A program made the translations under genes and the position numbers. 64,000 bases of DNA, taken from Candidatus Altimarinota bacterium (GTDB lineage: Bacteria; Patescibacteriota; Gracilibacteria; Absconditabacterales; Absconditicoccaceae). The notes under the pieces were generated by a model. The model saw nothing but the letters and a program-made list of their open reading frames with translations, was not told the DNA's origin and did no database searches. Positions 327-52,490 of this stretch are shown here, in pieces. The stretch lies in the NCBI GenBank assembly GCA_021734475.1, contig JAIPIU010000005.1:1-64000 (forward strand), in the 5' to 3' direction. Numbering within the stretch: position 1 is the first letter of the stretch; every line of letters begins with the position of its first letter.

Positions 327-3300
327 ATGAAAAGATTAACTCTATCAATTAAGTTTATGTGAATAAGTAGCAAAATTTTGGTTTTGATACAGATTTTTTT
401 GTTATTGTTTATTGTATGAGTAAATGCCGATTATACTGAGTTTACTAAACAATTAGACATGATGTGAATGGATACAAAAGAGATAGAAAATACTAATAAA
501 ATATCCCGTTATGATTTAGCAAAATTATTGAATACCGTAGAATGTAAGGACTGTATAAATACACCTCTAGATATGATTTATAAATATGATAATAAATTTC
601 GAGATGCTTTTGGAAAAATACCCGGTAAAGATTTTGATGATATAAAATATAAATGATGACTATACAAATGAGAAATATATTATTACTGTGTAGCATATGT
701 TTGAGATAATGACTATATGAGATGATATCCCAAAGAAGTTAGTCCAGTATGCGGTGGAAAATTCTGTGGAGATAAAGATACGACCCAAGCCGAATTTATA
801 CAAGTTATAATAAATCTTAGCGCAAAATATATTTATAAAAACTTTCAAGCAAACCGAAAAGAGATAGAAAGATGGATGAATAAATTAAAAGAATGATCAT
901 ATGCTGATAAATATTTAAATGATACAGATAGATCTAATATATTGGAAGCATCTAGTAAATCTAAATCTGGATATATAGATGATATAAAATATTTCGAGTC
1001 TTATATGAAGTACTGTATGTTTAATTTGGACTCTTGCGGATTTCAAGAATTTGCTAATATAAAACAGGCTGTCCGACCCGTAGCGGAATTAAATGTACTA
1101 TTTAGTCAGAATATAATAGATTTACCTATAGCTAGAAACATTAATATTAATCAACTAGCCGATGGAAAAACAGTATTAGATGTTTTGTATAAATTATATA
1201 GCGTAGTAAAATGTGATTGGAATAATGACTACGACTGTGATGAATCAGATAATTGAAATGATAACTGTCCCAACTATTATAATCCAAGTCAAATAGATAC
1301 AGATTGAGATTGAATATGAGATGTATGTGATAGTGATATAGACTGAGATTGAATACAAAATCCTATATGAATAGTAGACGATAATGGTCGCATAAATATA
1401 GCTTTGTGGGATGATGGTATAAATAATAATATGGATGATAATATCTTTTCATCAAAAGATAATGATAATGATAAAATCTGAATTTATATAAACATAGATA
1501 AACTACAATGAAGTGCTCCACTTACTGTAAATTTTGATGCTATAACTAAATGAGATATAGATGAAATCATCTGGGAAATGTGAGATTGAAGCCAAGTAAA
1601 ATGAACTAAAACAAGTTATACGTTTTTGTATCCATGACTATATAAAATAAGAGCTACTGCTAGTAATAGTGTAGAAAAGGCTGATGCCAAAGTAAGTATT
1701 TTGATATGAGAGAATAAACAAGATCAAAATTGAATAATAATAAGTACAAATCTTTTGGGATGATGAGAAAATTTAGAAATCTGATTTAGCACAAAAAATA
1801 TCGGTGATATAGATAAGATAAAGTGGAATTTTGGCGATTGAAAAGAGGTGATAAAATGAGTAAATGAAAACTTTAAAAGAATATTTATAGATAAATGAAT
1901 CTACAGAGTAGTAGCTAAATGATATAAATGATTAGAATTGAAATCTACAGCATCCATAAATATATGAATATGAGAAGGATCAAAATGATTCTCTATATAT
2001 CCAAATATATTAAATCCCAATGTTGGACAAAATTTTGTACTTGATACAAAAATTCGAGGATTTGATAAAAATAAAATAAAAAACATAGAAACTGATTGGT
2101 GAGATGGTACTAATCAAAATAATAATAGTTTATCAAACCAACACGTTTATCAACGATGATGAAAAAAAGTAATATTACAAAAAATTAATTTAATAGATGG
2201 TATACAATTGTTAAATTTTATAACAATTTATATTGTTGATCTAAATCTAGCTAATACATATACTTTTTTGGTATCACCAGATTCTATAGTAAACAATACA
2301 TATGATAAGTTTTCTTTTTCTAGCTATATTTTGGGGAATATATTACCAAACTACCCTTTTTTGATAAATCAATATAAAACTGACTATACAAAAATGTTCG
2401 CTGATATAAAAAAATGGCCACAAAAATTTGATTATATTTACAATAAAGCGTGATCATATAAATTGGTATCAAACCTATATATAAATCAATGTATAGTTTT
2501 GGAAAATCAAGCAAGTATAGTAGTAAATTGAAAAGATATTTGTTTGGAAGCTATGGAAAGTTGAACTCTATGAAATTTTGTATGTGATATGGATAATGAT
2601 CAAATACCCGATATATGTGATGATGATATAGATGGAGATGGAGTTAAAAACCTTATCTGAATAATCTCTTATGAGAAAGAAGGTTGTGGTATTTGACCTG
2701 ATAATATATGATCCACAAACTGAAATAATAATGGATGATGAGATAATTCAAATAATGTAGATGTAGAACTATTAAAAAAACATATAGGAACGTGTTCTTT
2801 GGATAATGCATTTCCTATAATAAACCCACAACAGACTGATTTAAATTTAAATGGTATATGAGATGAATTTGAAAGTCAAATATGAGTAATACTATGAAAT
2901 TTGGATAATCTATATTCTGACTCTATCAAAGATAGTGATTGAGATTGAATTCCTGATAGTTTAGATGCTTGTTTAGATATAAGTGAGACATATAATTGAT
3001 ATCAAGATGGAGACTGATGCCCAGAAATATGATTAAATCAAAATTGTGATCCTAGATTACAATATCCAAATCTATGATGATTATTTGATAATTTTATACC
3101 ATGATGAGGCGGTATCTGAGGTGGTGGTATCTGATGAGGCGGTATTTGATGAGGCGGTATCTGATGAGGCGGTATCTGATGAGGCGGTATCTGATGAGGC
3201 GGTATCTGATGAGGCGATATCTGATGAGGCGATATCTGATGAGGCGGATGAATAACAGAAATACCACCATTAATTCAATCTGAATGTTTGCAGTGTCCTT

Positions 3301-4917: not shown

Positions 4918-5091
4918 TTATTTTAACTTTTCTTTGGAATTATGTGTAGTCTGTTTTTTACATTTTTTGCAGTACTTTTTTAATTCTAATTTTGGAGTAA
5001 TAGCTTTGTTTATGGTAGAAAAATAATTTGTAGATCAGCACTCTTTACAAATCATAGCAACTATTATTCTTCATCACTTTTTCTTTGCCAT
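4918..5091 (-). CDS. rpmG: 50S ribosomal protein L33
   Basis: 57 aa with two CxxC pairs (CKEC and CKKC) and the central YFSTINK...LELKKYC stretch of bacterial L33; probably zinc-binding. It has two adjacent UGA glycines near the start (KKKGGR). It is too short for many gene callers and is adjacent to rpsP. Confidence 0.93.
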
Positions 5092-5204: not shown

Positions 5205-5260
5205 TTTAGCACCGGGCAGAATCGAACCGACCACCTTCCCGATTTATCGGGACGCTCTAA
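5205..5260 (-). repeat. 3' half of a tRNA with palindrome in place of the anticodon arm
   Basis: On the minus strand this fragment matches the intact tRNA at 5525 from the D-stem 3' side to the acceptor 3' end, including the T-arm (GGTTCGATTCTGCC). Its anticodon stem-loop is replaced by TCCCGATAAATCGGGA. It lacks the 5' acceptor strand and most of the D-arm. The stop codon of the GIY-YIG gene lies inside it. Confidence 0.75.
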
Positions 5261-5502
5261 GAATCTGAGATAAATAATTCTATAATCTTTCTACTTTTTT
5301 GATTCTTTAACCAAAGCTCCTTTTTATGTGCAATGCCTATGTTTTCAAACTTTTTATAAAAAATTAATTCCAATGGTCTGTTGTTTTTTGTAGAATATAC
5401 ATTTCATCTCATATGTTCACTTATTCTTCTTTGTAAGTCTTTTGTACTTCAAATATAACACTTTCAATTATTCATTTTAAGAACATAAACAAATCCTGTC
5501 AT
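5257..5502 (-). CDS. small GIY-YIG endonuclease-like protein (81 aa)
   Basis: The N-terminal core reads YVLKMNNGKCYIGSTKDL, then QRRISEH. This is the GIY-YIG catalytic signature (YVL...CYIGST) with the conserved Arg (R25/R26) and a Glu-His pair (E29, H30). The length fits the short single-domain GIY-YIG (UPF0213/YhbQ-like) family. The gene starts 22 bp from the intact CAU tRNA, and its stop codon TAG is part of a second tRNA fragment. Glycines are both UGA and GGN. Family members are DNA nucleases; a role in mobility at this tRNA locus is my inference. Confidence 0.85.
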
Positions 5503-5524
5503 AATTAATAGATTTACTTAAATT

Positions 5525-5598
5525 TAGCACCGGGCAGAATCGAACCGCCGACCTCGCCCTTATGAGAGGCGCGCTCTAACCATCTGAGCTACGGTGCC
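5525..5598 (-). tRNA. tRNA with CAU anticodon (Met elongator or lysidine-type Ile2)
   Basis: A full cloverleaf: acceptor GGCACCG/CGGTGCT with a G-U closing pair, D-arm GCTCAGATGGTTAGAGC, anticodon stem CGCCT/GGGCG with loop CTCATAA, and T-arm GGCGG TTCGATT CTGCC. CCA is not encoded. The CAU anticodon does not by itself separate Met from Ile2. Confidence 0.85.
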
Positions 5599-5848
5599 AT
5601 GTAATTTTACTTTTATTTATTAATCGAACCGACTACCTTCCCGATTTATCGGGACGCTCTAACCATCTGAGCTACGGTGCCATGTAATTTTACTTTTATT
5701 TATTAATCGAACCGACTACCTTCCCGATCTATCGGGACGCTCTAACCATCTGAGCTACGGTGCCATGTAATTTTACTTTTATTTATTAATCGAACCGACT
5801 ACCTTCCCGATCTATCGGGACGCTCTAAGCATCTGAGCTACGGTGCCA
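5599..5848 (-). repeat. three tandem 83-bp tRNA-derived units with palindromic anticodon arm
   Basis: Three copies at exact 83-bp spacing each carry the 5' acceptor strand, D-arm, a palindrome (TCCCGATAAATCGGGA or TCCCGATAGATCGGGA) at the anticodon-arm position, and part of the T-arm. They stop after TCGATT and lack the 3' acceptor strand. Each is separated by the AT-rich spacer TGTAATTTTACTTTTATTT, which also precedes the intact tRNA at 5525. They cannot fold as normal tRNAs and have no anticodon. Confidence 0.85.
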
Positions 5849-5914
5849 TATTTAAAGCATAAAGTTTAAAGCCTAAAGTTTAGGTTTTTTGTTTTAGGTT
5901 TTAGGTTTTAAGTA

Positions 5915-36130: not shown

Positions 36131-36958
36131 ATGCTTAATGAAACACCTACAACAAGTACTCAATGAATGGATTGACAAGCAGTTTGATGAGCTAATCCTC
36201 TTGATCTTGTGAATGAAGAAACTACAAAAACAAGTAATGCAGTACAATGAGATGGGCATAAGAGTATTGTAGATAAAATCATATGAATGATTGCAAAACT
36301 TAGTTGAAATCCCGACCCTTTTACATGAAAGGCAAATATTTCTACAACTCCAACTCCTGAAGTTAAAGTTGAAAATCAATCTCAGACTCCTGCTCCTGAA
36401 GTTAAAGCTGAAAGTCAATCTCAAACTCCTGCTCCTGAAGTTAAAGCTGAAAGTCAAACAAGTACAGCTAGCAACGAAGAAGGGGGATTGTTTGGTAAAT
36501 TTTCTGTATGACTTACTAAAGTCTTGGATAATGTTTGAGGTAAAATAGAAAATTTATGAGATAAAGCTTTGGATTGAACTATGAATGCTGTAACTAAATG
36601 ATTGGAAAAAGCTGAACAAGTATGAGAAACTGCAGTAAACGAAGCTCAAAAAGCTGTAGTAGATACAACACAATGAGTGAATGAATTTGTAAAATTAGAT
36701 AATAATCAAACAGAAAATAAAGTAGAAACTCCTGTACCTGAAGTTAAAACTGAAAAACAACCTGAGGTAGTCGTAGAAACTAAACAAGATATTCCTGTAA
36801 GTGAAGTTAAAGAAGAAATTCAAACTACTCCAGTGGAAGTCAATTCTGATAAAAAACCTGAAGTGGTTGTAGAAACTAGTTCTCCTATAGTTGATATCAA
36901 TACCACACCTGAAAATGTAGATGTAAATAAAACACAATGAGAAACAATTCCACAGTAA
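36131..36958 (+). CDS. disordered repeat protein rich in Pro/Glu/Val (275 aa)
   Basis: No signal peptide. Residues about 75-120 hold three 12-residue repeats of the type TPAPEVKAESQS. A helical, amphipathic middle (GLTKVLDNVGGKIENLGDKA) follows, then further PEV-K repeats. The repeats use GGN-free DNA, while the middle uses many UGA glycines. Probably a linker or scaffold; not recognised. It is first in a three-gene run with the next two. Confidence 0.65.
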
Positions 36959-51252: not shown

Positions 51253-52350
51253 ATGATGTTTGATCCACAGCAACCATACAATGATTTACCTTTACTACCA
51301 CCAAAGGAAACTTTTGATGATGCTGAAATTTCTAAACAATTGGTAAAGACATCTAGAGCATTGGCAAAATTGAACGGTATAGATCTATTGAATAATCACA
51401 AAATAAGTGAGATGATGATCAACCCATTTCTTATATCAGAATCTATCCAAAGCAACAGCATAGAAAATATACACACCACCGTAGAGGAATATTATAAAGA
51501 AGAAATATCAGCTAAACAGCTCACAGGAAACAACAAAGAAGCAGAAAAATACAAGGATGCAATTATGTATGGATTCGATCAAATCAAGGATAATGAAATG
51601 TTACTTACAAATGATATTGTAAAAATGCAATCAATCATTGTCCCCAATAAGCCAGGTATCAAATCTAGTCCAGATAAGAAAATTGAAAATTCGGTTACTC
51701 ATGAGATTATTTATACACCACCTCAATGACAAAAACTATTAGAGGATCTTATGTGAAACCTAGATAAATACATCAATGATGATGAAATACATGATGTTGA
51801 TCCACTTATCAAAGCTATAATTATCCACCACCAGATAGAATCAATACATCCTTTTCTAGATGGAAATGGAAGGACGTGAAGGATGCTTATGGTTTTATAC
51901 CTAGTATTGCAGTGATTGTTGTCTCTACCGATGCTTTTTATTAGTGGTTATATCAACAAATACAAAGATAAATATTATGCATATTTACGCGAAGCTAACT
52001 ATACAGGTAATTTAAAACCACTTATTATATATTTGTTGGAAGGTATAGAAGAACAATCTAAAAATACAATAACCAAGATTATCAAAGTTAACCAACTAAT
52101 CGATCATGTAAAAAATGCCATGTATGATGAATGAATAAAAGAATCTGATAAACTGATAAATGCTTTTATTGAACAACCATATTTTACAATATCTTCGGTA
52201 TTCAATACTACATTGATACCAGCTCGTACATTAAACAGATATTTCAAGAAATTATCTGAAGTTTGAGTTATCCAAAAATCTGCAGGTAGCAAATGATCTT
52301 ATATTTACTACGAGTTAGCTTGATTGATCCCTTTGATTTCAGAAGTTTAA
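51253..52350 (+). CDS. Fic-domain protein with N-terminal inhibitory helix (365 aa)
   Basis: Fic motif HPFLDGNGRTGR (199-210; Gly208/209 region includes UGA), preceded by the flap segment and followed by a C-terminal winged helix (RTLNRYFKKLSEVGVIQKS). The inhibitory motif (S/T)xxxE(G/N) is present as SNSIEN at residues 67-72, so the AMP-transferase is probably auto-inhibited (class II). It is inserted between hsdM and hsdS in the same direction. It may adenylylate a target upon activation. Confidence 0.92.
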
Positions 52351-52351
52351 A

Positions 52352-52490
52352 AGAAAATGGCCGATGATATGTTAGTCATCCGCCAAAAAGACAGAAAATG
52401 GCCGATGATATGTTAGTCATCTGCCAAAGAAGAAAGAAAATGGCCGATGATATGTTAGTCATCTGCCAAAGAAGAAAGAAATGGCTGATG
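52352..52490 (+). repeat. tandem hairpin repeats after fic (about 3.3 units)
   Basis: Units of about 45-47 bp built on AAAATGGCCGATGATATGTT AGTCATCTGCCAAAGAAG. Each unit can fold (TGGC/GCCA and GATGA/TCATC). The last unit is truncated. They are contiguous with no spacers. Confidence 0.88.

Follow-up and report, generated by a model that had tools for sequence, protein, structure and literature searches.

A short tandem array beside a tRNA-Met gene in the window (the whole 64,000-nucleotide stretch of DNA analyzed here) is probably part of a compact, tRNA-splitting element of the homing type that lacks an integrase and has a minimal GIY-YIG nuclease as its sole gene, and whose scars would be multiplied by break repair. 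We draw this reading from sequence: the anatomy of the locus, the same-strand linkage of GIY-YIG genes to tRNAs, the complementary displaced halves, the GIY clades sorted by isotype, the arrays, and a tRNA-Met that is outlying at the window locus.

Anatomy of the tRNA-Met locus

Tandem Repeats Finder reports an 83-bp period at 5572–5849 (3.3 copies, 98% matches), and both ARAGORN and Rfam identify a single intact tRNA-Met(CAU). Exact matches to the palindrome TCCCGATNNATCGGGA start at 5639, 5722 and 5805, and again at 5237; with up to two mismatches the window has four matches against 0.04 expected. The array, the intact tRNA and the palindromes described in the first-pass annotation are thus real, and three 83-bp tRNA-Met copies do have the anatomy that it gave them, with the 5' half kept, the anticodon arm swapped exactly for TCCCGATNNATCGGGA and the 3' end absent. 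It placed the copies after the intact tRNA, an order that has to be reversed because the whole locus lies on the minus strand and the copies are upstream; its count of three is right for these copies but incomplete, as a fourth palindromic copy and the GIY-YIG ORF were overlooked. In the sense of transcription, the order is tRNA-Ser, three repeats of 5' half, palindrome and 17 nt of 3' half, the intact tRNA-Met, the GIY-YIG gene, a unit of D-arm remnant, palindrome and 3' half, and the L33 gene:

5914–6002, minus strand: tRNA-Ser(GCU), the conserved upstream neighbor of tRNA-Met (ARAGORN; order shared with relatives)
5788–5847, minus strand: copy 1, full tRNA-Met 5' half, palindrome (5805–5820) and 17 nt of the 3' half, then truncated
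5705–5764, minus strand: copy 2, anatomy as copy 1, palindrome 5722–5737 (Rfam tRNA 17.0 bits)
5622–5681, minus strand: copy 3, anatomy as copy 1, palindrome 5639–5654 (Rfam tRNA 17.2 bits)
5524–5599, minus strand: intact tRNA-Met(CAU) within the putative element, a presumed horizontal replacement (ARAGORN, Rfam, identity comparison)
5257–5502, minus strand: GIY-YIG nuclease ORF, 81 aa, translation table 25 (Pfam PF01541, E = 1.2e-13)
about 5207–5272, minus strand: copy 4, displaced 3' half, consisting of a D-arm remnant, palindrome (5237–5252), full 3' half and 3' flank
4919–5091, minus strand: ribosomal protein L33 gene, the conserved downstream neighbor that marks the outer edge (Pfam PF00471, E = 1.4e-13)

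The defect of copy 4 is complementary to that of copies 1–3: it keeps the 3' half and the acceptor 3' strand and has lost the 5' acceptor strand. Two of the truncated copies reach about 17 bits on the Rfam tRNA model, for which the cut-off is 29 bits. The array copies are not identical to one another, differing in AA or AG loops and by a G/C difference in copy 1.

At the orthologous tRNA-Ser/tRNA-Met/L33 locus most relatives have a single plain tRNA-Met and a few have other copies, and the array is therefore a polymorphism. The first-pass annotation had named absence from the same locus in relatives as grounds for refutation. The array is indeed absent from most of them, but arrays are found at other tRNA genes too, some of them in named isolates with draft genomes; we therefore attribute the absence to mobility or turnover and not to an artifact. 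One relative (genome G027, locus L074) has two tandem rearranged copies that lack the usual palindrome between tRNA-Ser and tRNA-Met, and a displaced 3' fragment downstream.

Elsewhere in the window there are tandem repeats of 15 bp (3102–3247, 9.7 copies), 42 bp (52350–52490, 3.4 copies) and 39 bp (36346–36457, 2.9 copies). The 15-bp repeat encodes GGGIG-type repeats, and the 1054-aa ORF to which it belongs is readable only with TGA as Gly.

A minimal GIY-YIG protein

The ORF between the intact tRNA-Met and copy 4 is likewise read with TGA as Gly, and its stop codon is the TAG within TTAGAGC of the copy 4 D-arm. The GIY-YIG catalytic domain spans residues 3–71 of 81; in an alignment of 22 sequences Y6, Y16, H30 and E62 are invariant and R26 is nearly so (at least 90%). 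By alignment the protein belongs with GIY-YIG families that act on DNA, and the closest relatives of solved structure for its profile are UPF0213 proteins and SLX1. Longer homing endonucleases usually carry a separate DNA-binding part, and there is none beyond the catalytic domain here. At 81 aa the protein has no room for such a part to account for isotype specificity, which counts against the element interpretation.

Two other affiliations of the protein were considered and rejected. Matches to PADLOC defense systems are weak, the best being to a generic homing endonuclease model (4.3e-05), and for a phage origin a match to a Bacteroidota relative was found in one of 50,697 phage records.

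GIY-YIG genes lie within split tRNA genes

GIY genes that follow the intact tRNA have a displaced 3' half downstream of them in 42/69 cases and the wrong (5') half in 9; those that precede it have a displaced 5' half upstream of them in 23/32 and the wrong half in 2 (both among the matches listed, excluding the overlapping loci L312 and L319). At scores of 20 or more, expected and wrong halves number 34 and 1 with the tRNA upstream, and 17 and 1 with the tRNA downstream, among the same matches, and shuffled halves gave 0/101. This complementary-half rule indicates that the GIY gene sits inside a split tRNA gene, one half of which has been duplicated so as to leave an intact tRNA. Pairs that lack a displaced half (27/69 and 9/32 among the matches listed) count against the element interpretation.

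Palindrome-flanked examples (e.g. L034, L038, L041 and L044) show the same complementarity: the left copy consists of the full 5' half plus 10–17 nt past the palindrome, and the right copy has 6–17 nt ahead of the palindrome plus the full 3' half. In the loci that we read, GIY is the only gene between the halves, and a site-specific recombinase is absent there. Some elements have their intact tRNA outside the palindrome pair, a further point against the element interpretation. The counts from the palindrome-pair analysis (13/59 and 3/12) mix loci selected by DNA pattern with loci selected by GIY gene.

The palindrome as a putative remodeled anticodon arm

Of 133 distinct copies with flanks matching both sides of the parent's anticodon arm, 99 show the 17-nt arm exchanged for a perfect palindrome of 16–20 nt, a count that takes in some naturally palindromic arms of neighboring tRNAs. 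We then asked how often the palindrome interior holds the parent's anticodon, using 85 copies that start NNCCG and give 74 distinct anticodon/loop pairs. It does so in 21/74, against 7.5 expected, a number reached in 0 of 20,000 shuffles; with Lys removed the figures are 16/68 against 6.9, as high in 5 of 20,000. The small second set, from Bacteroidota, gave no significant anticodon memory (2/9, as high in 2834 of 20,000 shuffles). We interpret the palindrome as an anticodon arm that has been remodeled. The alternative of a foreign insertion is disfavored because the 17-nt arm is replaced one for one and the loop recalls the anticodon, with the caveat of the second set.

Palindromes also occur in other tRNA arms. 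Copies of tRNA-Val and tRNA-Ala in genome G030 (L027:1386–1900 and L030:1400–1600) have the palindrome in the D-arm region, and their anticodon arm holds a second hairpin, TCCCGC..GCGGGA; the next bases could pair with the 5' strand of the same tRNA. At L013:1471–1562 an otherwise intact tRNA-Ser(GGA) has TCCCGATAAATCGGGA as its long variable arm, and tRNA-Met copies at L021:1506–1850 have a second palindrome, ACCCCGT..ACGGGG, in the T-loop.

Recurrence within the class

The first-pass annotation proposed searching related genomes for palindromes exchanged for tRNA arms. A pattern made of the window palindrome and the five preceding bases, with up to two mismatches, matched 12 of 147 genomes of the class, the window's own among them, and one of these genomes has arrays at several different tRNA genes. 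A search of the same 147 genomes with the GIY protein gave matches in 98, and the own-class loci described here are the best 70 or so of that longer list. The 29 loci L036–L064 fetched in this way have GIY genes at tRNAs, several of them between two near-identical palindromes, and the stem TCCCG/CGGGA was again seen in loci fetched by the GIY gene, not by the pattern.

Among these best ~70 GIY-selected loci, 18 GIY genes form a separate clade (SH-aLRT 100) that we name housekeeping; just one is near a tRNA, on the opposite strand, and none has a palindrome pair. Of the 54 remaining genes 46 are within 200 bp of a tRNA, and all 46 are on the same strand as that tRNA. Two pairs of loci (L039/L095 and L042/L099) were counted twice in an early tally, and L095 and L099 were dropped from later ones. 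Many GIY genes near tRNAs lack a palindrome, which also counts against the element interpretation, and many GIY genes lack an array.

At L045, L053, L058, L063, L102, L105, L106, L108, L112–L114, L132 and L133 a GIY-YIG gene and a same-strand tRNA are about 120–250 bp apart; tRNA copies there are few or undetectable, and arm palindromes are absent. These loci may be another arrangement of the same family.

Recurrence in Bacteroidota and other phyla

A DNA-pattern scan of GTDB contigs returned at least 116 stretches. The 80 matches listed are mostly from Bacteroidota, and other titles among them are Ignavibacteriae, Nitrospirae, Chloroflexi, Acidobacteria, Kiritimatiellae, Planctomycetota and Patescibacteria; a tRNA is present within 300 bp in 53 and a GIY gene within 1 kb in 33. 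The pattern used to draw these loci (L135–L250) has a fixed TCCCGAT stem and a fixed AGAGC, so that their uniform stems and some of their closeness to tRNAs follow from the design, but their closeness to GIY genes does not.

A draw selected by the GIY protein from the class of one Algoriphagus genome matched 52 of 119 genomes. The best 69 loci of a longer list contain 97 GIY matches, a number that includes further-off tandem units and the overlapping loci L304/L319 and L305/L312. Of these, 56/97 are within 200 bp of a tRNA, and 56/56 are on the same strand as it. Elements are present in contigs of named isolates such as Algoriphagus, Niastella and Taibaiella. One genome of the GIY-selected draw has a whole GIY-YIG unit of 457 bp repeated 10.2 times near a tRNA-Met (L311:1942–6583) and a 379-bp GIY-YIG unit in four full tandem copies at a tRNA-Asn (L312:1696–3358).

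Isotype sorting and probable replacement of tRNA-Met

Mapping tRNA isotype onto the GIY tree requires 58 changes among the matches listed, compared with a shuffled mean of 78.3 and a value as low in 0 of 200 shuffles; near-copies contribute to this signal. A clade of ten GIY rows has tRNA-Lys in every row with an assigned isotype, and an Asn clade has a support of 98.

The tRNA-Met of the window is only 0.83 identical to those of two same-genus relatives, and its closest matches (0.96) are in two genomes of another genus, whereas the neighboring tRNA-Ser is 0.96–0.97 identical to its same-genus counterparts. An outlying tRNA-Met beside a genus-typical tRNA-Ser argues for replacement from outside, and by these comparisons the tRNA-Met was probably acquired from another genus. 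Two features of the locus speak against the element interpretation. The outer halves have the acceptor type of the inner tRNA and not that of the genus, so that co-conversion must also be assumed; and the inner intact tRNA keeps a natural anticodon arm that is also found in empty relatives, so that it should itself be a target.

A proposed cycle

We propose that the element sits in a tRNA gene divided at its anticodon arm, with the outer 5' and 3' halves surviving, each on a palindromic replacement arm, and that one intact tRNA remains on one side so that the cell keeps the function. In a tRNA gene without the element, the nuclease would break the anticodon arm, and the break would be repaired from an element-bearing copy via short tRNA homologies (6–19 nt) that border the palindrome on the side facing the element's interior, copying the nuclease, the palindrome and all or part of a replacement tRNA into the target. 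Because the palindromic arm lacks the natural arm sequence, it may be resistant to the nuclease. Recurrent breaks, along with unequal exchange between direct repeats, would then amplify scars, giving the three 83-bp copies here and, elsewhere, whole GIY units in up to ten copies. Cutting, homing, palindrome resistance, mobility and the direction of transfer are what this proposal would add to the observed anatomy. Of the three ideas offered initially, a landing site comes nearest, with the copies as scars that an element has left at a tRNA gene; gene conversion, another of them, probably contributes to the repair by which the copies arise.

More tentatively, these loci might represent an undescribed class that spans phyla: elements with no integrase and one GIY-YIG gene of about 80 aa, which split tRNA genes at the anticodon arm, bring a replacement tRNA or part of one, and have their junctions marked by a recoded palindromic arm that would be resistant to cutting and possibly functional at first. 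With the palindromic outer tRNA dead, loss of such an element by recombination would be lethal and the host would be addicted to it. Among the titles and opening abstract lines of the open-licence PMC papers that our literature searches listed, we found no description of tRNA-hairpin-GIY arrays.

If the proposal is correct, very small homing-type elements with one gene of about 80 codons routinely occupy essential tRNA genes in Bacteroidota, Patescibacteria and other phyla, which would account for tandem pseudo-tRNA arrays and for many unassigned small GIY-YIG genes beside tRNAs. It would extend the break-and-amplify mechanism of SegB from phages to chromosomes, make isotype choice by a minimal GIY-YIG domain testable, and provide a way for tRNA genes to be replaced horizontally, with the tRNA-Met of the window as a candidate case.

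Alternative explanations

An alternative that we regard as unlikely is that the arrays are passive by-products, in which a tRNA is duplicated in tandem, the copies decay to stable hairpins, and a harmless repair nuclease of the SLX1/UPF0213 type lodges there by chance. Those proteins are the closest solved relatives of the profile, direct-repeat copies can grow by slippage, and natural anticodon arms are hairpins already. Chance lodging does not readily explain strand concordance of 46/46 and 56/56 among the matches listed, the near absence of the wrong half at high score, GIY clades sorted by isotype, or the recurrence of the TCCCG/CGGGA stem in own-class loci fetched via the GIY gene and not the pattern.

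It is quite unlikely that the system acts at the level of RNA, with the palindromic copies transcribed as tRNA-like RNAs (a decoy or antitoxin array) and the GIY protein acting on tRNA as a toxin with a repeat-RNA antitoxin. The truncation of the copies at one end, with scores near 17 bits on the tRNA model, argues against this, as do the many GIY genes that have no array, tandem amplification that covers whole GIY genes and not RNA units alone, and the alignment of the protein to DNA-acting families. It is consistent with repeat arrays adjoining a small nuclease, arms that remain perfect hairpins (99/133), the parent anticodon in 21/74 palindrome loops, and clades that follow isotype. For copies as stable tRNA-like RNAs, the remaining initial idea, we found nothing in favor.

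The loci could also be remnants of a known tRNA-targeting element, either a group I intron or an integrase-borne island that has lost its other parts, which we consider very improbable. A search of the window and of 10 element loci at Rfam gathering cut-offs found no group I ribozyme or intron, GIY is the sole gene between the halves in the loci read, and the same minimal unit is present across phyla; to be set against this are the likeness of displaced tRNA halves to the attachment-site duplications of integrase elements and a weak GIY-domain score on a group I intron endonuclease model (32 bits, cut-off 56). An assembly or sequencing artifact deserves almost no weight even though the sources are mostly metagenome-assembled, as the copies differ among themselves and elements occur in contigs of the isolates named above.

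Relation to known systems

Integrative islands and prophages use tRNA genes as entry sites, restoring an intact tRNA and leaving a displaced half. The elements proposed here are similar in pairing an intact tRNA with a displaced tRNA end at the far side (42/69 and 23/32), but they have no integrase, their sole gene encodes an ~80-aa nuclease, they occur in a 3'-side and a 5'-side version, and the junction is at a remodeled anticodon arm. REP hairpins with their RAYT transposases and the Rickettsia palindromic elements offer another parallel, as short direct-repeat palindromes flank a small nuclease gene and palindromes lie in RNA genes. Unlike REP/RAYT, there is no Y1 (HUH) transposase here and the sole ORF between palindromes is GIY-YIG; unlike either, the palindrome replaces the anticodon arm and is neither intergenic nor inserted. 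The likeness to type III repeat-RNA toxin-antitoxin systems appears to be one of anatomy, and the copies are truncated.

Group I introns in tRNA anticodon loops carry GIY-YIG endonucleases, and both the anticodon arm and the endonuclease are features of our loci. The tRNA target is shared as well with the introns described in PMC3984707. In contrast to these introns, no ribozyme was found and the tRNA is duplicated, not spliced. UPF0213 proteins, which with SLX1 are the closest solved sequence relatives, are likewise small single domains; the housekeeping clade, which we set against this type, differs from the element genes in having 1/18 members near a tRNA and no palindrome pairs among the matches listed.

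The best precedent is SegB. This GIY-YIG enzyme of phage T6 makes its cuts within tRNA genes, and homologous recombination amplifies tRNA-Tyr and segB in tandem only if its nuclease is active (PMC13096335). Like SegB of phages T4 and T6 (PMC13096335 and PMC2988022), the window protein is free-standing, intron-less and beside tRNA genes, and by analogy cutting in tRNA genes would lead to tandem amplification of the tRNA and of its own gene. Unlike SegB, it is an 81-aa chromosomal protein, and the tRNA gene within which it is encoded is split and has palindromic replacement arms. PMC13096335 describes a wide range of isotypes for SegB with no reported preference, whereas the GIY clades here sort by isotype. 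By the same analogy the element would behave at tRNA genes as free-standing homing endonucleases do, differing in its size, in having no room for a second DNA-binding part, in tRNA splitting and in the palindromic arm. Location at the target outside an intron or intein, a trait of such endonucleases, is seen in 46/54 genes within 200 bp of a tRNA among the best ~70 loci, with the tRNA as the presumed target.
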